Positions 7,131-18,614 of a DNA stretch of 20,254 nucleotides are shown one piece after another. Position numbers and translations under genes: made by a program. How positions within the stretch are numbered: position 1 is the stretch's first letter; each line of letters opens with the position of its first letter. Below the pieces are notes generated by a model. The model was not told where the DNA came from. It ran no database searches and saw nothing but the letters and a program-made list of their open reading frames with translations. The DNA is from Chloroflexota bacterium. GTDB lineage: Bacteria; Chloroflexota; Dormibacteria; Dormibacterales; Dormibacteraceae. The stretch spans positions 1 through 20,254 of the forward strand of contig VBJR01000322.1 of assembly GCA_005880175.1 (NCBI GenBank). The letters run 5' to 3'.

Positions 7131-7686
7131 GCCGATGTCGCTGGCCGACATCGTCGCCCGCGGGACGGCGGTCGTTGCGCCGCTGACCGACCGCTGGGCC
7201 GACAAGCAGCTCGTGCGGCACGCCGACCTGCTCGTAGATCCCGCGGCGATCAGGTGGCGACCGAAGCCAGCCACCGGCTTCCGCGCGAAGTTCCGGCGGC
7301 ACTACACGACCGAGCAGCGCGAGGCGCTGCGGGCCGCCAGCGACCGTCGAGCCCTGGCCAACCGGGCGCGCACCGCGGCGGCGGAACCAACCACACGCCC
7401 CGCGGCGACACCGCCGCGTGGAGCTCGGCCACCGCGGCCCGACGCCGGTACGAAGCCAACGCGGCCGGTCGCCGCGGCGGTGCACCCGCGCACCATCACC
7501 GCGTCCGCGATTGCCGAGGCGCCGCTGCCGGCGGCCACGAACGTCGAGCGGCTCGCCCTCGCCGCCGAGCTGCGCCGCGCCCGGCAGCGAATCGCCGAGC
7601 TGGAAGCGGAGCTGGAGCGGCACCGCGCGGTGGCGGACGACCTGCTTCGGCGAGTCGAGGTCGCCGTCGGACGGAGGGCGGCGTGA
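7123..7686 (+). CDS. Hypothetical protein with disordered middle and C-terminal coiled coil (187 aa)
   Basis: The ATG at 7123 is preceded by GGAGG (7109-7113) at 9 nt spacing and overlaps the upstream stop; ATG 7135 is an in-frame alternative. The N-terminal ~70 residues look folded (SLADIVARGTAVVAPLTDRW, then GFRAKFRRHYTTEQREAL). Residues ~75-130 are Pro/Ala/Thr/Arg-rich and probably unstructured. The last ~50 residues form a coiled coil (LAAELRRARQRIAELEAEL). The stop overlaps the Mom-like gene by GTGA, so it belongs to the modification operon by position. Not recognised; a DNA-binding or scaffold partner is a guess. Confidence 0.55.
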   Translation: MGEPMSLADIVARGTAVVAPLTDRWADKQLVRHADLLVDPAAIRWRPKPATGFRAKFRRHYTTEQREALRAASDRRALANRARTAAAEPTTRPAATPPRGARPPRPDAGTKPTRPVAAAVHPRTITASAIAEAPLPAATNVERLALAAELRRARQRIAELEAELERHRAVADDLLRRVEVAVGRRAA

Positions 7687-8498
7687 TCGAGGCGGCGTCC
7701 GACTTCTGTCTGCGGTGGCATGCGCGCCGGCACTCATGGCGCCACCGGTCCGAGGGCGGCTTCGACGCTCGCCGGTACGACGTCGCGCCGCTGGCGGAGT
7801 CGGCCGCACGCACCTTCGTCGAGATCAACCACTACGCGGCGAGCTACCCGGCCGCCCGCCTGCGCTTCGGGCTCTACGACGGGCCGTGGCTGGTCGGCGT
7901 CGCGGCGCTCGGGGTGCCCATGCAGCGGCGGGTGCTGACCGCGGTGTTCCCGGACCTGGAGCCGTACGCGGAGTCGCTCGAGCTGAGCCGCTTTGTTCTC
8001 GCGGAGTCGGTGCCGGCGAACGGAGAGAGTTGGTTCCTGGCCCGCTGCTGGGAGCTCGCGGTCCGTCAAGGCGTACGCGGTGTGGTCAGCTTCAGCGACC
8101 CGGTGCCGCGCCGCACCGCCACCGGCGATCTCGTCTTCCCCGGCCATGTCGGCACGATCTACCAGGCCAGCAACGCGGCGTACCTCGGCCGCACGACGCC
8201 GCGCCGCGTGCTGCTGCTGCCCGATGGCCGCGTGCTCAGCGAGCGCGCGTTGTCCAAGGTGCGCGGCGACGAGCAGGGCCACGCCTACGTCGAGCGGGAG
8301 CTCGTGCGCTTCGGCGCCCGGGCCCGGCGGCCAGGTGAGGCCGGCGCCGCGTGGCTGCGTGAGGCGTTGGCGGCGGCTGGCGTGCGGTCACTCGTGCACG
8401 GCGGCAACCATCGGTACGCGTTCCGGCTGGGGGCGCGGCGCCGGCTGGTGGCGGTGGGGCTTCCGGTGGCGGCGTACCCGAAGGCGGTCGCGGCGTGA
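7683..8498 (+). CDS. Mom-like DNA modification protein (GNAT-type fold)
   Basis: The 271-residue product matches a family found in actinobacterial plasmids and phages and related to phage Mu Mom. Mu Mom converts adenine in DNA to N6-carbamoylmethyladenine and blocks host restriction. Characteristic blocks are HYAASYPAARLRFGLYDG, VLTAVFPDLEPYAESLELSRFVL, ESVPANGESWFLARCWELA (GNAT-like core), VVSFSDPVPRR and HVGTIYQASNAAYLGR. A C-terminal NHRYAFRLGARRR ends the domain. The GTG start overlaps the preceding stop and its own stop overlaps the methyltransferase start, so the two are co-translated. The assignment to the Mom family is from remembered motif pattern, and the modification made here is unproven. 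Sequence specificity and co-substrate are unknown. Confidence 0.75.
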   Translation: MIEAASDFCLRWHARRHSWRHRSEGGFDARRYDVAPLAESAARTFVEINHYAASYPAARLRFGLYDGPWLVGVAALGVPMQRRVLTAVFPDLEPYAESLELSRFVLAESVPANGESWFLARCWELAVRQGVRGVVSFSDPVPRRTATGDLVFPGHVGTIYQASNAAYLGRTTPRRVLLLPDGRVLSERALSKVRGDEQGHAYVERELVRFGARARRPGEAGAAWLREALAAAGVRSLVHGGNHRYAFRLGARRRLVAVGLPVAAYPKAVAA

Positions 8499-9859
8499 AC
8501 GATTGGCAGGACGGTCCGGTGCGTGTTCTGGTCGGGGACTGCCGAGGGCGACTGCGCGATCTGCCGGACGCGAGCGTTGACGCACTCGTTACCGATCCGC
8601 CAGCCGGCATCTCGTTCATGGGTCGGAGCTGGGATCACGACCGCGGTGGCCGCGACGCCTGGGTGCGCACCTTTACCGCCACCTTCCGCGAGGTGCGCCG
8701 CGTCCTGAAGCCGGGCGCGCATGGCCTGGTCTGGGCGCTGCCGCGCACCTCGCACTGGACGGCGACTGCGCTGGAGGACGCCGGCTTCGAGGTCCGTGAC
8801 ATCGTGCATCACCACTTCGGCTCGGGGTTTCCGAAGAGCAAGAACCTGGATGGCGAGTGGGAGGGTTGGGGCACGGCACTGAAGCCGGCCACCGAGCACT
8901 GGATCCTCGTGCGCAAGCCGCTGTCGGAACCGAACGTGGCGGCCAACGTACAGGAGCACGGCACTGGGGCGCTGCACATCGACGGCTGCCGCATCCACAC
9001 GGCCGGCAGCGAGGCGAAGCCCTACACCGTCACTCGGCTCAAGCCCGGAGCCACGCTCAACGCGACTGGCGGCAACTGGCGGCCCGAGGAGGGCGACGTC
9101 AAGTACCACGGGGAGACCAGGGCCGGCCGTTGGCCGGCCAACCTCGTGCTCAGCCATGCCGAGGGCTGCCGGACGGTGGGGGCGCAGACCGTCCGGAGCG
9201 ACGGCCATTACGCGAACGGCCGCGGCCACGATGGCGCGATCGCGACCGGCCTGCGTGGCGCAGACGCCGGCGGGGACCGCTACACCGGCCGGGAAAGGGT
9301 CGAGGCATGGGAATGCGTCGCGGGCTGCCCGGTGGCCGAACTGGACCGACAGAGCGGGAGGCTGTCCAGCGGGTTCATGGCCGCCGGCACGGAGCGTGAG
9401 GGACTCGGGTACCGAGGCGGTCTCGGTACCCGAGTCCGGCACGACACGATCGGCGACACGGGCGGGGCGTCGAGGTTCTTCTATGTCGCCAAGGCGAGCG
9501 CAGCCGAGCGCGGCGCCGGGCTGCCACCAGGCGATCGGAACACGCACCCCACGGTCAAGTCGATCGCGCTCATGCGCTGGCTGTGCCTGCTCGTGACGCC
9601 GCCCGGCGGCGTCGTGCTGGACCCGTTCATGGGCAGCGGGACCACGGGCTGCGCCGCGGTCCTTGAGGGGCTCGGCTTCGTCGGCATCGAGCAGGACTCC
9701 GAGTCGGTCCGGACGGCGATTGCTCGGCTGGTTCACTGGAGCCGGCAGCCACGCCTCGATCTGCGGCCTGTCCGTAGTCACCACGAGATCGCCGGCTCCC
9801 GGCCAGGCGCGCCTGTAGCCGAGACGCTGCCGCTCTTCGACTTCGAGGACTCCGCCTGA
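8495..9859 (+). CDS. DNA methyltransferase, class beta (amino-methyltransferase)
   Basis: Catalytic motif IV comes first (VTDPPAGISFMG, D34-P35-P36-A37). The AdoMet-binding motif lies near the C-terminus (VLDPFMGSGTTGCAA, ~374-388, followed by FVGIEQD). This order marks a beta-class N6-adenine or N4-cytosine methyltransferase. The tetrapeptide is DPPA instead of the usual DPPY, a substitution I associate with a phage/plasmid subfamily that also has ALPRTSHWTATALEDAGFE and HHHFGSGFPKSKN, both present here. A long central insertion (~130-290) probably recognises the target. With no restriction nuclease beside it, this is an orphan enzyme, likely protective or cooperating with the Mom-like and DpdA-like neighbours. 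GTG start by GTGA overlap. A perfect 16-bp inverted repeat lies inside it. Confidence 0.88.
   Translation: MNDWQDGPVRVLVGDCRGRLRDLPDASVDALVTDPPAGISFMGRSWDHDRGGRDAWVRTFTATFREVRRVLKPGAHGLVWALPRTSHWTATALEDAGFEVRDIVHHHFGSGFPKSKNLDGEWEGWGTALKPATEHWILVRKPLSEPNVAANVQEHGTGALHIDGCRIHTAGSEAKPYTVTRLKPGATLNATGGNWRPEEGDVKYHGETRAGRWPANLVLSHAEGCRTVGAQTVRSDGHYANGRGHDGAIATGLRGADAGGDRYTGRERVEAWECVAGCPVAELDRQSGRLSSGFMAAGTEREGLGYRGGLGTRVRHDTIGDTGGASRFFYVAKASAAERGAGLPPGDRNTHPTVKSIALMRWLCLLVTPPGGVVLDPFMGSGTTGCAAVLEGLGFVGIEQDSESVRTAIARLVHWSRQPRLDLRPVRSHHEIAGSRPGAPVAETLPLFDFEDSA
9401..9437 (+). repeat. Perfect 16-bp inverted repeat inside the methyltransferase gene
   Basis: GGACTCGGGTACCGAG (9401-9416) is followed by a 5-nt loop (GCGGT) and its exact reverse complement (9422-9437). 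It contains two GGTACC sites. No T-run follows, so it is not a standard terminator. It falls in a glycine-rich coding segment (GLGYRGGLGTR). Confidence 0.85.
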
Positions 9860-10620
9860 AGTTCTACCTCGGCGCGCACCACCCTCACTGGCTGGAGCGC
9901 GCGCCGTTCCCACTCTTCGTCAGCCACCGCCGCCTCGCTGTCCGGCGCCGGCTGCCACGGGCCGCCACCGGCTGGGCGCTGGACTCGGGCGGCTTCACGG
10001 AGCTGCGGTTGTACGGCGGCTGGCGGACGACGGCGGCCGAGTACGTGGCCGCCGTCCGCCGCTACCGCGACGAGATCGGCAACCTGGAGTGGGCGGCGCC
10101 GATGGACTGGATGTGCGAGCCGTTCATGCTCGCGAAGACGGGGCTGACCGTCGCCGAGCACCAGCGGCGGACGGTCGCCAACTACCTGGAGCTGTGCAGC
10201 ATGGCGCCGGACCTGCCGTTCGTGCCCGTGCTGCAGGCCTGGAGCCGAGCCGACTATCTGCGCTGCCTCGACCTGTACCAGGAGTCGGGCATCGATCTCA
10301 CCGCGGAGCCGCTGGTCGGCGTCGGGTCGATCTGCCGCCGCCAGGCCACCGGCGAGATCGAGGCGATCGTGCACTCGCTCGCGTCGTTGGGGCTGCGGCT
10401 GCACGGGTTCGGCGTCAAGGCTGGCGGGCTCGTGCGCTACGCGGACTGCTTGGTGTCGGCCGACTCGCTGGCCTGGAGCTTCGAGGCGCGGCGGGCGGCG
10501 CCGCTGGCCGGCTGCACGCACGCCAACTGCGCGAACTGCCCGCGCTACGCGACGGCGTGGCGGGAGCGGACGCTGGGGCGGCTGGGTGCGGTGCAGCTGC
10601 ACCTGCAGGTGGCGGTGTAG
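9856..10620 (+). CDS. DpdA/TGT-like base-exchange enzyme (deazapurine DNA modification family), CTG start
   Basis: The TIM-barrel family related to queuine tRNA-guanine transglycosylase swaps guanine for a 7-deazaguanine. DpdA members act on DNA. Here: KFYLGAHHPHWL at the N-terminus, ALDSGGFTEL (catalytic-type Asp at ~43), APMDWMCEPFML, GVGSICRRQ, HGFGVKAGGLVRYAD and a terminal cysteine group CTHANCANCPRYA that could hold zinc. The frame has no ATG, GTG or TTG between the in-frame stop at 9775 and TTG 10009, which is past the DSGGF motif. The only sensible start is CTG 9856, overlapping the methyltransferase stop as CTGA and giving the expected MKFYLG-type N-terminus. 254 residues from that start. 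preQ0 synthesis genes are not in the window. DNA rather than tRNA as substrate is inferred from family and context. Confidence 0.75.
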   Translation: MKFYLGAHHPHWLERAPFPLFVSHRRLAVRRRLPRAATGWALDSGGFTELRLYGGWRTTAAEYVAAVRRYRDEIGNLEWAAPMDWMCEPFMLAKTGLTVAEHQRRTVANYLELCSMAPDLPFVPVLQAWSRADYLRCLDLYQESGIDLTAEPLVGVGSICRRQATGEIEAIVHSLASLGLRLHGFGVKAGGLVRYADCLVSADSLAWSFEARRAAPLAGCTHANCANCPRYATAWRERTLGRLGAVQLHLQVAV

Positions 10621-10755: not shown

Positions 10756-11604
10756 CTATGCTGCTCGCCGACGCAGGCTTCGCGAGCGCATGACGCCCAG
10801 GTGGTGGGCGGCGTGCCAGGCCAGGTCCGGCGCCTCGTCCATCCGAGCCCAGCAGGCTACCGCTGTGTTCGCCGTCGTGAGCTCTGCGAACAGCGTCAGC
10901 AGCTGAGGATCGGCCTCCGGGAAAGCTTCGTGGCAGCCGACGAAGCCAACGTCCGCCTCGATGGGCCCCACGCAGACCGTCTCCAGATCGATCCATCGGA
11001 CCGCGCCGCGCACGATCAGCCGGTTGTAGCTGTGCGGACTACCGTGGATTGGCTGGAGCCGCAACTCCAGCCGGCCCAGGTCGGCGCGGAGGCGATCGTG
11101 CTCCTCGACGAGGAAGTCCCGGTCGCGCTGCCGCAGGCGCCGCGAGTGGCCCCTCTCGAAGAGTGCTCGTGCGTCGGGAATACCCGCACGGAAGTCGGGC
11201 AGCGCGCCCGGGAACGACGGCAACGCGCGGTGGAGATCCCGCAGCGAGTCCGCGATCGCAGCGCACGGCACCCGGACATCGCGGTCCTGTTCGTAGTATC
11301 GCCAGAAGGTCATGGCCAGGTCGCCATGCCAGTGGACCTGGCTGGGCAGCTCCGGGCTGGGCTCGGCGACCGGTGCGCCGAGCGTGGCCAGGTGCGTGGC
11401 CACTGCCAGCTCGCGGCCGAGCGCCTCAGCGCCCTCCGACCGCCGCTCGTTCGCCGCAACCTTGGCCACGACCGGCGCCGGGTACAGGTGCACCACCGTG
11501 TTGTTGGAGTCCCAGAGCACGCGGGGCCGGCCGGTCGGGACGCCGTGACGGGCCGCCACTGCGACGGCTGCCGTCACCGCTCGCTCGCTGCGAAGCATGG
11601 ACAC
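10756..11604 (-). CDS. Aminoglycoside-phosphotransferase-fold kinase (APH family) with altered catalytic loop
   Basis: 282 residues. GTG at 11604 is chosen because GAGGAGG lies 9 nt upstream; ATG at 11598 would sit 15 nt away. The N-lobe has TVVHLYPAPVVAKVA with the ATP-site lysine (K48). The catalytic loop reads HGSPHSYN (187-194), where the family pattern is HGDxxxxN: the catalytic Asp is Ser. The metal-binding Asp is kept in RWIDLETVCVGPIEADV (D206). HWHGD at ~91-95 is a second, non-catalytic HGD-like string. The family phosphorylates antibiotics or small metabolites. With the base Asp missing, antibiotic inactivation cannot be assumed. The gene lies inside the IS-like element, divergent from the transposase, so it travels as cargo. 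Confidence 0.8.
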   Translation of the reverse strand: MSMLRSERAVTAAVAVAARHGVPTGRPRVLWDSNNTVVHLYPAPVVAKVAANERRSEGAEALGRELAVATHLATLGAPVAEPSPELPSQVHWHGDLAMTFWRYYEQDRDVRVPCAAIADSLRDLHRALPSFPGALPDFRAGIPDARALFERGHSRRLRQRDRDFLVEEHDRLRADLGRLELRLQPIHGSPHSYNRLIVRGAVRWIDLETVCVGPIEADVGFVGCHEAFPEADPQLLTLFAELTTANTAVACWARMDEAPDLAWHAAHHLGVMRSRSLRRRAA

Positions 11605-11903: not shown

Positions 11904-13220
11904 TTGCCTGCACCCGCTTCCTGGCTCACGTTCCTGCACCTCTTCGCCGGCTGCTTCACCGCTCCGGGCCAGCTCCTGTTCGAGCAGCTCGTCACCGCCT
12001 GGGCGCTCTGCCCCGGCCGCCGCACCTTGACCCGGCTCTGGAGCGTCATCCCGCCCGAGCGACGTCGGCGCTACGGCGCCTACGCACGCTGGGTCCGGGA
12101 GGGCAGATGGTCGCCGGACGAGCTCTGGCGGCGCCTGGTCGTCCAGCTCGTCGAGCACTGGGCGCCGACGGGCCGGCTGGTCCTGCTGCTCGACGACACC
12201 CTGGTCAACAAGAGCGGGCGCAAGGTGGACGGCGCCGGCTTCTTCCACGACGCGGTCACCTCGACCGCGGTCGCCCACAAGGTGACGGCCTGGGGCCTCA
12301 ACGTGGTCGTCCTCGCCCTTCCCGTCCCCCCTCCCTGGGGTGGCGAGCCGCTGGCGTTGCCGGTGATGATCCGCCTGCACCGCAAGAGTAGGGAGGCGAC
12401 CGAGGAAGAGGAGGAACTCAGCCTGATCGAACTGGCGGCCTGGATGGTCTTCCAGCTCGTCGAGTGGCTGCCCAACCATCGCTTCCGGCTGGTCGCCGAC
12501 GGCGCCTACGCCTCCCTGCTCCGCTATGAGTTCCCGCGCACTGCCGTCATCACCCGCATCCGCCGCGACGCCGCCCTCTTCGACCTGGCTCCTCCGCGCA
12601 CCGGTCGCCGCGGTCGTCCCCGCACCAAGGGCCAGCGCCTGGCCACGCCGCTCGGCCTGGCCGCCGCTCTCACCGACGTCGACTGGACTACGGTCGAGGT
12701 CTGCGTTCGCGGCCAGATGGTCGAGCGCAAGCTCTGGTCGCGCGTGCTCCTGTGGTACGAGACCGCCCGCTCTCGCCCCCACCTGCTCGTCATCGTCCGT
12801 GACCCCTCCGGCCACCAGCACGACGACTACTTCATCACCTCCGACACCTCGATGACCGCCGCCGAGGTGGCCAGCCTCTACTCCGACCGCTGGGCCATCG
12901 AGGACGCCAACCGCAACTTGAAGCAGTACCTCGGCGTCCAGAACCCCCAGTCCTGGGTCGGGGACGGGCCCGAGCGCGTCGTCGCTCTCGCCGGCTGGCT
13001 TTACTCCGCCGCCTGGCACTGGTACCTCGTCGCCCACGCCGAGGACCCGACCTGGCCCGACCGACCTTGGTACCCAACCAAGCGCACGCCCTCGTTCGCC
13101 GACGCGTTGGCCGCCCTTCGCAGCGAAACCTGGTCGGCAATTCTCGGCGATCTCGTTCGCGACCTCGACTCCCCACAAATCGTGACCACGCTCATCTCCG
13201 TACTGGCCAGCGCCGCCTGA
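11904..13220 (+). CDS. IS701-like DDE transposase (DDE superfamily endonuclease)
   Basis: 438 residues with the ordered catalytic triad: D97/D98 in RLVLLLDDTLVNKSG, D199 in RLVADGAYAS, and E332 in YSDRWAIEDANRNLKQYLG, where WxIE(x)5-6K resembles the family's final motif. The N-terminal segment SWLTFLHLFAGCFTAPGQ and CPGRRTLTRLW match the IS701/DDE_5 type layout. It cuts and rejoins the element's ends. The only in-frame start is TTG 11904; the frame is closed by a stop at 11853. A well-placed ATG with GGAGGG at 11833 is one frame off, so the natural N-terminus may be reached by a frameshift or have been damaged. The stop lies about 12 nt from the right terminal repeat core. Confidence 0.9.
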   Translation: MPAPASWLTFLHLFAGCFTAPGQLLFEQLVTAWALCPGRRTLTRLWSVIPPERRRRYGAYARWVREGRWSPDELWRRLVVQLVEHWAPTGRLVLLLDDTLVNKSGRKVDGAGFFHDAVTSTAVAHKVTAWGLNVVVLALPVPPPWGGEPLALPVMIRLHRKSREATEEEEELSLIELAAWMVFQLVEWLPNHRFRLVADGAYASLLRYEFPRTAVITRIRRDAALFDLAPPRTGRRGRPRTKGQRLATPLGLAAALTDVDWTTVEVCVRGQMVERKLWSRVLLWYETARSRPHLLVIVRDPSGHQHDDYFITSDTSMTAAEVASLYSDRWAIEDANRNLKQYLGVQNPQSWVGDGPERVVALAGWLYSAAWHWYLVAHAEDPTWPDRPWYPTKRTPSFADALAALRSETWSAILGDLVRDLDSPQIVTTLISVLASAA

Positions 13221-15098: not shown

Positions 15099-15271
15099 GG
15101 AGTCAGCTGTTCGCCTTCGGCTGCCGCGTGTGCGCGGTCGAGGTGATCGTGGCGGGCGGTCGTCGCAGGCGGTTCTGCGACGACTGCTCGCGCCGGCTGG
15201 CGATTCGGATGCGGCGGATGCGCCAGGAGCGCTTCGTACGGCGATTCGACCAGGTGCGGGAGGCCGCCTGA
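15095..15271 (+). CDS. Zinc-ribbon-like small protein (58 aa)
   Basis: GTG overlaps the previous stop (GTGA). The product has two cysteine pairs, GCRVCAVEV and RFCDDCSRRL, separated by an Arg-rich turn (VAGGRRRR), then a basic helix (LAIRMRRMRQERFVRRFDQV). This is a classic small treble-clef or zinc-ribbon outline with a nucleic-acid-binding basic helix. It ends one base before the small-terminase start. Such mini zinc proteins are common next to terminase or HNH genes; no HNH residues are visible here. Confidence 0.6.
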   Translation: MRSQLFAFGCRVCAVEVIVAGGRRRRFCDDCSRRLAIRMRRMRQERFVRRFDQVREAA

Positions 15272-15272
15272 G

Positions 15273-15791
15273 ATGACGGCTGCCCAGCCGGAGCTGCGCG
15301 GGACGGACTGGCGGAGCGGCACGACGCTCGAGCCGGGGACCTGGCACCGGCTGCTCCAGGCCTTCGACGCCGGAGCCCCGCCGCTGCTCGCCTGCCAGTA
15401 CGCGGGCGTCCGGTTCGAGACCTGGCTGGCGGAATGCCGGCGCACGCCCGAGTTCGAGCTGGTGGCGCAGCGGGTGCGGGCAAGCGGCGCCGTCGCCTGC
15501 CTGCTGTTCATCCAGCAGACCGCGGCCACGGACTGGCGGGTGGCCAGCGAGTTCTTGAAGGTCGCCTTCGCCGAGCACTTCGGCTCCCGGGCCCGCGACG
15601 TCTCAGGCGTGGAGCTGGTCGGCGACGAGGACCCCGAGGCCGAGGTCAGCCCGGACGACGTCGCCGCTGTCCTGCGCATCCTGCGCGCCAACGGGCTGGG
15701 GCGCAGCGAGGTCGATCTCGGTGTCGAGGTGGACGGCGGCTCGAACGGGCGCGCGAACGGCGCCCATCGCGACGGCGAGGCGGCCGAGTGA
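15273..15791 (+). CDS. Small terminase subunit-like protein
   Basis: 172 residues. ATG 15273 has GGGAGG (15258-15263) at 9 nt. Residues ~25-60 form a helix-turn-helix-like unit (LLACQYAGVRFETWLAEC). Then a helical segment follows the pattern seen in small terminases and phage HTH proteins: FELVAQRVRASGAVACL, IQQTAATDWRVASEFLK and a VAFAEHFG-type end matching the common DWRAAxxLLxRxFPxxxG. Small terminases recognise the packaging start site on DNA and hand it to the large subunit. The C-terminal ~60 residues (acidic linker and SNGRANGAHRDGEAAE tail) are variable. Order relative to the large terminase is as in phages, with a tiny ORF between them. Confidence 0.65.
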   Translation: MTAAQPELRGTDWRSGTTLEPGTWHRLLQAFDAGAPPLLACQYAGVRFETWLAECRRTPEFELVAQRVRASGAVACLLFIQQTAATDWRVASEFLKVAFAEHFGSRARDVSGVELVGDEDPEAEVSPDDVAAVLRILRANGLGRSEVDLGVEVDGGSNGRANGAHRDGEAAE

Positions 15792-15901
15792 TGGGCGATC
15801 ACGTGGCAAGGCGAGGCGTGGCCTGGCAGGGCACGGCGTGGCATGGGTGGGTCGGCGGCAACCCCGCCGGCCCACATCACCGCGGCAGGGGGCGGCGATG
15901 A
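15791..15901 (+). CDS. 36-aa ORF encoded by a GGCNN pentanucleotide array, coupled on both sides
   Basis: ATG 15791 overlaps the small-terminase stop (TGATG) and its own TGA (15899-15901) overlaps the large-terminase start (ATGA), exactly the junction style used by the real genes here. Because the DNA repeats every 5 nt, the peptide repeats every 5 residues: ARRGV-AWQGT-AWHGW, then a Gly/Pro/His/Arg tail ending HHRGRGRR. It is basic and tryptophan-containing, with no known domain. It may be a genuine micro-protein, or an intergenic repeat that happens to be open and keeps ribosomes moving between the terminase genes. Conservation of the frame in relatives would decide. Confidence 0.5.
   Translation: MGDHVARRGVAWQGTAWHGWVGGNPAGPHHRGRGRR
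15805..15844 (+). repeat. Eight tandem GGCNN pentamers
   Basis: Consecutive units GGCAA, GGCGA, GGCGT, GGCCT, GGCAG, GGCAC, GGCGT, GGCAT, followed by degenerate GGGTG and GGTCG. The first three bases are constant and the last two vary, so it is a patterned array and not a simple microsatellite. Confidence 0.85.
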
Positions 15902-17289
15902 GCAGCTCCACGGTGCGATCTACCATCGAGCAGGGCCCGGCCGCCATGCCGCTCGCGCTCACCGAGCAGGACGTGCGCCGCGCGTACTCGCTCATGCGGC
16001 GAATCGCGAGGAACCCGTACATCCCGGCCAAGCCAACGCTGAAGCAGCTCGCCTTCCTGCTGGCCGAGGAGCGCGAGGTGTTGATGACCGGCTCGGGCGG
16101 TTGCGGCAAGTCGATCGGCTTGTTGATGTCCGGCCTGCTCGACGTGGACCGGCCGGGCTACCGCGCGCTGCTCGCACAGCGGACCTTGGCCGGTCCCGTG
16201 TCACTGGGCGAGTTGGCGCGGCAGTGGCTGGAGCCCACCGACGCGAGTTGGGACAGCACCGCCCGCGTCTGGCGCTTCCCGAGTGGCGCGTCACTCGGCT
16301 TCGGCCACGAGAGGCTCATGTACCTGAGCGGCGAGTACCACATGGTCGGCTGCGACGACCTGACGCTGTTCAGCGACGTCGAGTACCGCCGCCTGTTTCA
16401 GGTCTGGCGCCGCCGCAGCGGCTCGACGACGCCGATGCGCGTGCGCGTCGCCACCTCGCCGGGCGGGCCGGGCCACGACTGGGTCCGCGAGCGCTTCGCC
16501 ATCGACAACCCCGCCTCCGTGCTGCCGCTCGGCCGGCGGGTGGTGTTCGCGCGGATGTCGGATAACGAGCATCTCGACGTTCAGGAGTATCGGCATTCGC
16601 TGAGCAACCTGGACCCGGTCCGCCGGGCGCAGTTGGAGACCGGGGACTGGTCGATCCGCCAGGGCGGCGCCATCTTCCAGCGCCAGTGGTTCCGGATCGT
16701 GGACAGAGCTCCGGCCGGGCTGCGCAGGGTCCGCTTCTGGGACCTGGCGGCGACCGCCGAGCCCACGCGCACCGACCTCCTCTACGACCCCGACTACACG
16801 GTCGGCGCGCTGCTCGGCCTGGCCCACGACGGCACCGTCTACGTGCTCGACGTCATCCGCCGCCGCCTCGACTCGCCCGACGTCAAGCGGCTGGTCCGGC
16901 AGACCGGCGAGCTCGACAGCCGCGAGGTGGTGATCAGCATGCAGCAGGAGTCGGGCGCGTCGGGCAAGGCCGTCATCTCCCACTACAGGCGAGCCCTGGC
17001 TGGCTGGGTCTTCCAGCCGCGGCAGCCGTACGCGGACAAGGTGACGCGGGCGGCGCCCTACGCCTCCTACGCGGAGGGCGGCGGGGTTCGGCCGGTGCGG
17101 GCGTCCTGGAACGCGCAATTCCTGCAGGAGCACGAGCAGTTCCCGCTGGGGGAGCACGACGATGTTGTGGACGGGCTGTCAGGCGGCTTCAACCTCCTGT
17201 TTCCGGAAGCGAGGGCGAGGACCGCCAACGGCCGGGACCGGGCCCGCGCCCACTTCAACCCGTGGGCCGCCGAGGACTTCGAGCAGTGA
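15898..17289 (+). CDS. Large terminase subunit (packaging ATPase-nuclease)
   Basis: 463 residues. Walker A is MTGSGGCGKS (K71). A Walker B-like strand ends in MVGCDDLTLFSD (D153-D154), where most relatives have DE. Motif III is suggested by VRVATSPGGPGHDWV. The RNase-H-like nuclease follows, with RFWDLAAT (D282), a central DSREVVISMQQE segment and EHDDVVDGLSGG (D421, D422, D425). This matches phage TerL proteins that pump and cut DNA at the capsid portal. Start ATG 15898 has a G-rich Shine-Dalgarno and ATGA coupling. No portal or capsid genes follow in the window; the next genes are conjugation-like. The packaging role is therefore by family, and co-option in an ICE or phage-plasmid is possible. 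Confidence 0.85.
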   Translation: MSSSTVRSTIEQGPAAMPLALTEQDVRRAYSLMRRIARNPYIPAKPTLKQLAFLLAEEREVLMTGSGGCGKSIGLLMSGLLDVDRPGYRALLAQRTLAGPVSLGELARQWLEPTDASWDSTARVWRFPSGASLGFGHERLMYLSGEYHMVGCDDLTLFSDVEYRRLFQVWRRRSGSTTPMRVRVATSPGGPGHDWVRERFAIDNPASVLPLGRRVVFARMSDNEHLDVQEYRHSLSNLDPVRRAQLETGDWSIRQGGAIFQRQWFRIVDRAPAGLRRVRFWDLAATAEPTRTDLLYDPDYTVGALLGLAHDGTVYVLDVIRRRLDSPDVKRLVRQTGELDSREVVISMQQESGASGKAVISHYRRALAGWVFQPRQPYADKVTRAAPYASYAEGGGVRPVRASWNAQFLQEHEQFPLGEHDDVVDGLSGGFNLLFPEARARTANGRDRARAHFNPWAAEDFEQ

Positions 17290-18614
17290 GCGCCCCCAAG
17301 CGATCGGCGGCCGCCAACGAGCTGCGCGACTGGCGGGTGTGGGCGATGGTCGCCGTCGCGGTCGTCGTGCTGGTCCGCGCCGCGCTGCTGCGGGTCGGCT
17401 GGTGGGCGGCGCTGGCCGTGCTGCCGGTGGCGGGGGTGGTGTTCGCCATCGTCGCGATCCGGCTCCTGCGCCGGCCGGCGGCGGCTTCGGGCTTCCCCGC
17501 CGAGGCGACGCGGGCGCTCGCCGCCCACCTGCCCGATGGCGGCCGGCCGCCGCGCGTGCTCGATGCGCGCCAGAACGGCGAGGTGTGGGAGGTCGAATGG
17601 CGCCTCCACGACCGACGCTCGGGCCAGGCGCTGCTGAAGAAGACGCGAGACCTGGAGCACGAGCTGGGCGCGGCCCTGGAGCTGCACCACGACAAGCACC
17701 GCCTCCGGATGCGCGCGGGCACCGCCGAGATCCCGGACGTCGTGACGTTCGAGGAGTTCTACCGGCATCCGGCGCCCGACGGCGAGCTGGTGGTGGGGAT
17801 CGGGATGTCGCGCTGGGGTGCGGTCTGGGCCGATCTGGTCAAGCTGCCCCACCTGCTGATCGGCGGCACCACGCAGTTCGGCAAGAGCGTGATGGTCAGC
17901 CAGATGCTGACGCGGCTCGCGCTCACGTACGGGCCCGAGCACCTGAAGCTGGCGCTCGTCGACTTCAAGCGCGTCGAGCTGAGCGCCTTCGAGGGCCTGC
18001 CCCACGTCACGCCGCCCGACGGGCAGGCGGCCTCGATCGCGGTGGCCAAGGACATCGAGGCCTACCTGGAGCTGCTCAAGGTGCTCTCCGAGTCGCTCGA
18101 CGAGCGCCGGCTCCGCTTCGACCTGGCGCGCGTCAAGAACATCCAGGACTGGAACCGCCGCCCGGAGCTGGGCGGCCGGCTGCCCTACGTGCTGCTGGTC
18201 ATCGACGAGCTCGCCGAGGTCAGCGTCGAGGAGGCCGGCAACCCAGAGGAGAAGCGGCAGCGTCAGGAAGCGCTGGCGCTGCTCGCCCGCATGGCGCGGC
18301 TCGGCCGGGCCTTCGGCTTCCACATCATCGCCGCCACCCAGCGGCCGGCCGTGGAGACGGTGCCCGGCCCGATCAAGTCGCAGCTGCTGGCGCGGATCTG
18401 CTTCAAGGTCGCCACCGGCACCGAGAGCCGCGTGGTGCTGGGCGAGGACAACTCGACCGGCGCCGAGCTGCCGGCGCATCGGGGGCGCGGGATCTGGCAG
18501 TGGTCGCTGCCGGCTGTCTTCCAGGGCCCGCTGCTGACCGACCCCGAGCCCCTGCTGGCCGGCCTGAAGCGGCCGGCGGTGCTGGCCGTGGAGTCGGAGG
18601 AGGAGGTGGCATGA
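17286..18614 (+). CDS. FtsK/SpoIIIE-type DNA translocase, conjugation coupling protein-like
   Basis: 442 residues. Two N-terminal membrane helices (~18-34, VWAMVAVAVVVLVRAALL, and ~37-60) anchor a cytoplasmic RecA-like motor. Walker A is GGTTQFGKS (K200), Walker B LLVIDELAEV (D307-E308) and sensor-type HIIAATQRP follows. Late blocks GPIKSQLLARICFKVAT and SRVVLGEDNSTGAELP are characteristic of FtsK/TcpA/TraB motors. There is no C-terminal gamma winged-helix domain, unlike chromosomal FtsK, and the four-helix N-domain is reduced. That favours a mobile-element coupling protein that drives DNA to a secretion channel. It is coupled by GTGA to the terminase and by ATGA to the next membrane protein. 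Confidence 0.88.
   Translation: MSAPKRSAAANELRDWRVWAMVAVAVVVLVRAALLRVGWWAALAVLPVAGVVFAIVAIRLLRRPAAASGFPAEATRALAAHLPDGGRPPRVLDARQNGEVWEVEWRLHDRRSGQALLKKTRDLEHELGAALELHHDKHRLRMRAGTAEIPDVVTFEEFYRHPAPDGELVVGIGMSRWGAVWADLVKLPHLLIGGTTQFGKSVMVSQMLTRLALTYGPEHLKLALVDFKRVELSAFEGLPHVTPPDGQAASIAVAKDIEAYLELLKVLSESLDERRLRFDLARVKNIQDWNRRPELGGRLPYVLLVIDELAEVSVEEAGNPEEKRQRQEALALLARMARLGRAFGFHIIAATQRPAVETVPGPIKSQLLARICFKVATGTESRVVLGEDNSTGAELPAHRGRGIWQWSLPAVFQGPLLTDPEPLLAGLKRPAVLAVESEEEVA

Follow-up and report, generated by a model that had tools for sequence, protein, structure and literature searches.

What is a run of GGCNN pentanucleotides doing between the two terminase genes of a phage-like gene set in Chloroflexota? 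The stretch analysed here (contig VBJR01000322.1, 20,254 nt; hereafter the window) carries such a run downstream of a putative small terminase gene and upstream of a large terminase gene; together with a hairpin that follows it, the array takes up most of the 106 nt that separate the two genes. The features concerned are these:

15273-15791, + strand, putative small terminase gene, so called from its size and position alone
15791-15901, + strand, 36-codon frame (the 'micro-ORF' of an earlier note made from the sequence alone), judged not to be a gene; the same frame is open from 15434
15805-15844, + strand, eight strict GGCNN units, candidate guide, based on sequence and shuffles
15847-15875, + strand, 12-bp hairpin, candidate 3' tail of a vrRNA (the RNA of the VIPR system described below), based on folding against shuffles
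15898-17289, + strand, large terminase gene (PF17289, E 8e–11), with its ATG at 15898

The units read, in order, GGCAA GGCGA GGCGT GGCCT GGCAG GGCAC GGCGT GGCAT, giving the variable (NN) string AA GA GT CT AG AC GT AT, with seven distinct dinucleotides among eight. The earlier note had reported eight successive units with fixed GGC and two varying last bases, and this was confirmed, as was its argument that a fixed GGC with free NN is not the mark of slippage. It had named random occurrence as an outcome that would count against its reading, and two tests speak against chance. Six GGC in phase occurred three times (overlapping) in the window and on average 0.00 times in 100 dinucleotide shuffles of it; and when all 64 triplets were scanned as XYZNN (at least seven units, at least five of them distinct) in 123 loci that had been fetched for other reasons (1.23 Mb), one array was found, of the GGC type, in L205. 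On these two results a chance origin of the window array was ruled out; a rough independent estimate for eight GGCNN units is 1.5e–6 per window, counting both strands. A CRISPR array was likewise rejected: tandem and direct repeat scans of the window gave no identical repeats of 25–45 nt with unique spacers here, and the period is 5.

The hairpin, overlooked in the earlier note, begins two bases past the array end and has the form GUGGGUCGGCGG-CAACC-CCGCCGGCCCAC. Because the array runs straight into this 12-bp hairpin, the bases GGTCG GCGGC belong to the hairpin rather than to the array. Folding of 15845–15880 gave z = –4.4, with 0 of 200 shuffles as stable; longer stretches of 57, 88 and 110 nt fold less distinctly (z = –2.8, –2.0 and –1.7). 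An Rfam search of the window returned nothing reaching the gathering score.

The small terminase frame matched no Pfam family at E ≤ 0.01, and no relatives of it were found. The large terminase as sole query retrieved 7 loci at 22–28% identity; an alignment of 17 large terminases retrieved 7 loci in genome contigs, at up to 45%, and among viral contigs the best 80 of 102 reached up to 47%. The closest large terminases, those of P0001–P0021, are 67–98% identical. With the whole window as query, high-identity searches gave short matches of 73–79% to phages (7 records, with the match falling in the DpdA gene in 6) and none among plasmids. That gene belongs to a DNA-modification cluster at 7632–10620, in which genes for a Mom family protein (PF25680), an N6/N4 DNA methylase (PF01555) and DpdA (PF23859) are adjacent. 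A DDE transposase gene (PF13546) lies within the phage-like gene set at 11904–13220, the frame at 10756–11604 (– strand) may, judging by eye from a motif, encode an aminoglycoside-phosphotransferase-type kinase fold, and an FtsK/SpoIIIE-type ATPase gene (PF01580) follows the large terminase gene directly at 17157–18614. Ten proteins of the window were scanned and included no head or tail protein, which suggests that the window covers the genome incompletely.

The earlier note had an impression that similar arrays occur in phages and proposed a search with the degenerate pattern. Such arrays proved common: searching viral contigs for seven in-phase GGC gave at least 120 loci. Twelve low-complexity arrays (three or fewer distinct units) were left out, and with them 10 of the 120 listed loci, leaving, among the matches listed, 259 arrays of at least seven units at 110 loci. 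The following counts all refer to these 259 listed arrays. Eight units are present in 49 and seven in 44. The fifth base is uniform (23–26% for each nucleotide), while the fourth is purine-rich, with C at 13%. The triplet right after the array is GGT in 60 cases, GGA in 22 and GGG in 18; GGT being the commonest there points to GGY as the underlying motif. By simple gene calls, 129 arrays lie between two genes of the array's direction and 6 between two opposite ones, 63 are inside a called gene of the same direction and 15 inside an opposite one, 15 are between divergent or convergent genes, and 31 are at a locus end. The array of L014 and the first of L023 sit just past a stop codon and just ahead of a ribosome-binding site and start codon.

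One protein of about 190 amino acids is encoded again and again next to the arrays. Built up from its copy in L014, a profile matched 83 of the 120 listed loci, and all 83 fall among the 110 with degenerate arrays. The whole records of the remaining 27 listed loci added three (one of them, in L074, a 36-aa fragment where the contig ends), bringing listed records with both a degenerate GGCNN array and the protein to 86 of 110; the corresponding figure for listed loci with low-complexity arrays only was 1 of 10 (L068, a 43-aa fragment). In the 83 listed loci holding both, 212 of 219 arrays share the protein's strand, and all are within 2 kb of it. Among 87 loci chosen by their large terminase, two have GGYNN arrays (six or more units), and the same two encode the protein. 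All six copies scanned were assigned to phrog_4652, a family of unknown function, and no Pfam family scored above cut-off. An AlphaFold model (55 sequences, pLDDT 97.3) resembles CRISPR Csm3/Cas7 proteins: all 49 PDB matches at E ≤ 0.001 came from Csm3 or from complexes of CRISPR type III or VII; the TM-scores were modest (0.4–0.6).

The association of array and protein was found before we knew of a 2026 preprint on VIPR (bioRxiv 10.64898/2026.04.26.720920; PMC13142463); the fold test came after. As described in the main text of the preprint, VIPR consists of Vipr, an early-branching RAMP protein, and vrRNAs of 9–16 GGY/NN units with a structured 3' tail; the hypervariable NN pair with double-stranded DNA, one base being skipped per unit, mostly the wobble base of a codon, and the complex represses competing phages (PMC13142463). 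The same text proposes the system as both an ancestor-like relative of CRISPR and a phage-against-phage weapon (PMC13142463). Its account of GGY every five bases as a scaffold read by the RAMP protein (PMC13142463) makes selection on spacing the closest of the earlier note's readings. Literature searches listed no other paper on VIPR.

Phage SUSP1 connects the two data sets. Our profile matched its CDS at 28474–29061 (E = 5e–47). On the same strand this CDS is preceded by a GGY run of 11 units and followed by strict runs of 6, 4 and 4. The preprint gives SUSP1 one vrRNA upstream and three downstream (PMC13142463); the runs are interrupted by non-GGY units and leave that count unsettled. Judged by the profile match, the array-linked family includes the Vipr locus of SUSP1. 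Among four other named phages, arrays were seen in Gordonia phage Trine (12 units, lying 58 bases beyond the vipr frame), in Gordonia phage MakoManhole (7 units) and in Pseudomonas phage LESphi2 (10 units), while Mycobacterium phage prophiBWHA-1 has only a strict run of 4. Past the arrays of the two Gordonia phages (L370:3686-3745 and L369:2952-3011) the tail resembles a tRNA T-arm by eye: GGGGTTCGACTCC in Trine and GGGGTTCGAC in MakoManhole. A tblastn search with a single Vipr matched 155 of 50,697 phage records.

Two variants were seen alongside these arrays. In L082 and L050 arrays reach up to 29 GGCNN units, against 9–16 in the preprint, and may be fused or staggered vrRNAs. GCGNN arrays (L222–L338, e.g. 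L223, L230 and L233) accompany Vipr in 69 of 91 loci with degenerate arrays, and 175 of 187 run opposite to the vipr strand, i.e. read CGCNN on that strand; being themselves Vipr-linked, they are unsuited as a negative control. The preprint mentions 'a related consensus' (PMC13142463).

Were NN taken from coding DNA, skipping the wobble base, one would expect them to be composed like codon positions 1+2, on either strand. We compared this model with alternatives after dropping exact duplicate guides. For the listed arrays in Vipr loci (216 arrays, 2114 NN), codon 1+2 came out ahead of each alternative in 300 of 300 bootstraps, with a margin of 115 nats against codon 2+3, 441 against codon 3+1, 273 against reversed dinucleotides and 78 against a GC-only model. 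For the 40 arrays (319 NN) of the 27 listed loci whose fetched DNA has no Vipr, the model again led the codon alternatives in 300 of 300, with a weak lead over GC-only (4.5 nats, 249 of 300 bootstraps). We regard this signature as support rather than proof, because avoidance of GGCC self-pairing could partly lower C at the fourth base. The earlier suggestion of a small mobile repeat that spreads while preserving frames is not supported, since GGC alone is constant and NN carries information, as in a guide.

Direct searches identified no target. In viral contigs the window guide matched exactly at 4 places, a scrambled order at 29. Two of the four (L128 and L130) fall inside a gene such that the skipped base is the wobble base, but two cases carry no weight. 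No target with up to 3 mismatches was found inside the window, and the guide of the lone array in L030 had 0 matches. Skip lengths of 0–3, compared for 199 guides in a small DNA sample, made no difference (mean best match 0.787, 0.789, 0.786 and 0.784).

What sets the window apart is the missing protein. No profile match to Vipr at E ≤ 10 was found in its 20,254 bases, and profile–profile comparison of its 88 ORFs of at least 100 aa gave at best 2.6%, against 98.6–99.0% for four left-out family members. With no Vipr in 20 kb, the window is not a VIPR system as seen, a statement that holds for the window and not for the whole virus. It is not alone in this: 24 of the 110 listed records with degenerate arrays have no detectable Vipr, many of them fragments. 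For 13 of the 24, the fetched DNA extends at least 1.9 kb to either side of the array, and profile comparison of 118 gene calls of 80–450 aa in those 13 loci found no Vipr (best 4%; L001 contributed one gene only). Of the 27 listed loci whose fetched DNA has no Vipr, three encode it elsewhere in the whole record. These 27 have fewer arrays (1.48 on average, a single one in 18 of 27) than the 83 listed loci with Vipr (2.64, a single one in 26 of 83). Several lone arrays lie, by eye, between head, tail or other phage genes; those in L017, L036 and L104 run against their neighbours. The preprint's main text makes no mention of arrays without vipr (PMC13142463).

Hairpins add a little. Leaving aside flanks that contain another array, the 27 listed loci with no Vipr in their fetched DNA had a strong hairpin (z < –1.5) within 45 nt past 5 of 17 array ends and in 0 of 13 upstream flanks, and in two of them (L066 and L120) the lone array runs directly into a long GC-rich hairpin, as in the window. 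Vipr-linked listed arrays showed no excess by the same threshold (22% of 79 downstream flanks against 19% of 72 upstream, P = 0.63), and a hairpin alone therefore proves little. In L120 a type II hammerhead ribozyme (RF02276) was found at 7940–8010 (– strand), about 3 kb from the lone GGCNN array; in some VIPR types, hammerheads have been described as lying between vrRNAs (PMC13142463).

Taking these results together, we consider it probable, at roughly 70%, that the window array is a solitary VIPR-type vrRNA-like guide of eight GGCNN units and a 3' hairpin, encoded on the + strand within the terminase pair. By analogy with VIPR we infer that it would be transcribed, loaded with Vipr and aimed at a target. 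Copies of Vipr, the small Cas7-like RAMP protein, would sit on the array RNA at each GGY, leaving the 16 variable bases to pair with double-stranded DNA of the pattern AAxGAxGTxCTxAGxACxGTxAT, and this pairing would block transcription of a competing element. Vipr would be supplied by sequence of this virus that the window does not cover or by a co-resident element. The former is possible given a 73-kb virus record (L076 and L219, non-overlapping parts) that has arrays beside its Vipr and a separate second pair away from it. The array shares with vrRNAs the five-base GGY/NN units, whose NN vary from unit to unit here, an intergenic position, a structured 3' end in the form of the 12-bp hairpin, and membership of a class of arrays tied to a RAMP protein; it differs from those described in the preprint's main text in having no Vipr within 20 kb, one array only, and a place in a terminase gap (PMC13142463). 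Several points count against the guide reading: the window encodes no Vipr, its eight units fall short of the preprint's 9–16 (PMC13142463), the searches found no target, hairpins are not enriched after Vipr-linked arrays in general, and no promoter-like or terminator-like site was found in 15200–16000 by simple consensus. The earlier observation is thus partly confirmed and its interpretation partly supported.

For the window array and the other lone arrays alike, Vipr may be encoded elsewhere or borrowed, or the array may act as an RNA decoy. This last alternative, in which a lone array would be an anti-VIPR RNA soaking up the Vipr of a competing element, we hold to be unlikely. It would suit the 24 of 110 listed array records, and the window, that have no detectable Vipr, but many of those records are fragments, and a decoy would need no particular NN, whereas the 40 listed Vipr-less arrays lean, by a weak signal, to codon 1+2. 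Still less likely is a relic, i.e. a former vrRNA that became neutral when vipr was lost: the missing Vipr, the eight units on the short side and the single copy are as expected of one, but drift would soon destroy GGC, and here all eight GGC and the hairpin are intact. We give little credence to a pac- or cos-type packaging signal read by the terminase and periodic by accident; the site between two terminase genes would favour it, but the only GGYNN arrays of at least six units in the 87 terminase loci (L200 and L205) adjoin vipr and not the terminase. The G-strand structure proposed in the earlier note, a G-quadruplex or R-loop built on GG pairs every five bases, is more improbable again. 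Four GG pairs with three-base loops could give a two-tier quadruplex, but GG would then suffice, yet the third base is C in the arrays and a pyrimidine is preferred there in the next triplet, where C is of no help to such a structure; the Cas7-like partner is also left unexplained. As for a translationally coupled micro-ORF with a selected pentapeptide-repeat product, its first and last codons do overlap the terminase genes as first described (ATG on the small-terminase stop, TGA on the large-terminase ATG), but we set this reading aside almost entirely, because the frame is already open from 15434 (the 36 codons are the tail of a 155-aa ORF, 15434–15901, of a length unremarkable at 71% GC), NN = TA, which makes TAG in one frame, is not avoided (1.45 times background in the 259 listed arrays), arrays are mostly intergenic, and the five-residue period is arithmetic.

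A solitary guide of this kind has parallels in known systems. In type I and III CRISPR, as would be the case here, a Cas7-type RAMP protein coats a regularly spaced guide RNA, and the Vipr model resembles Csm3; unlike in CRISPR, the window has no repeat-spacer array, its candidate guide bases being distributed, as NN, over the repeat units themselves. Racr RNAs, solitary CRISPR repeats in phages, are anti-CRISPR RNAs that soak up Cas proteins. They too are lone guide-like RNAs in a virus without the effector gene, although the effector is another one and decoy action of the window array is a hypothesis.

With VIPR itself published in 2026, it is the lone-array variant that invites testing. We tentatively raise the idea, which we think has the odds against it, that lone GGCNN arrays, that of the window included, form a distinct and widespread set of stand-alone guide RNAs, one vrRNA per vipr-less virus, placed in gaps between other phage genes and arming or jamming a co-resident Vipr. 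Such guides could be detected without the protein, by combining a degenerate pattern search with the codon 1+2 signature of NN. If guides do travel without the protein, VIPR conflicts would gain a layer of borrowed guides or RNA decoys.
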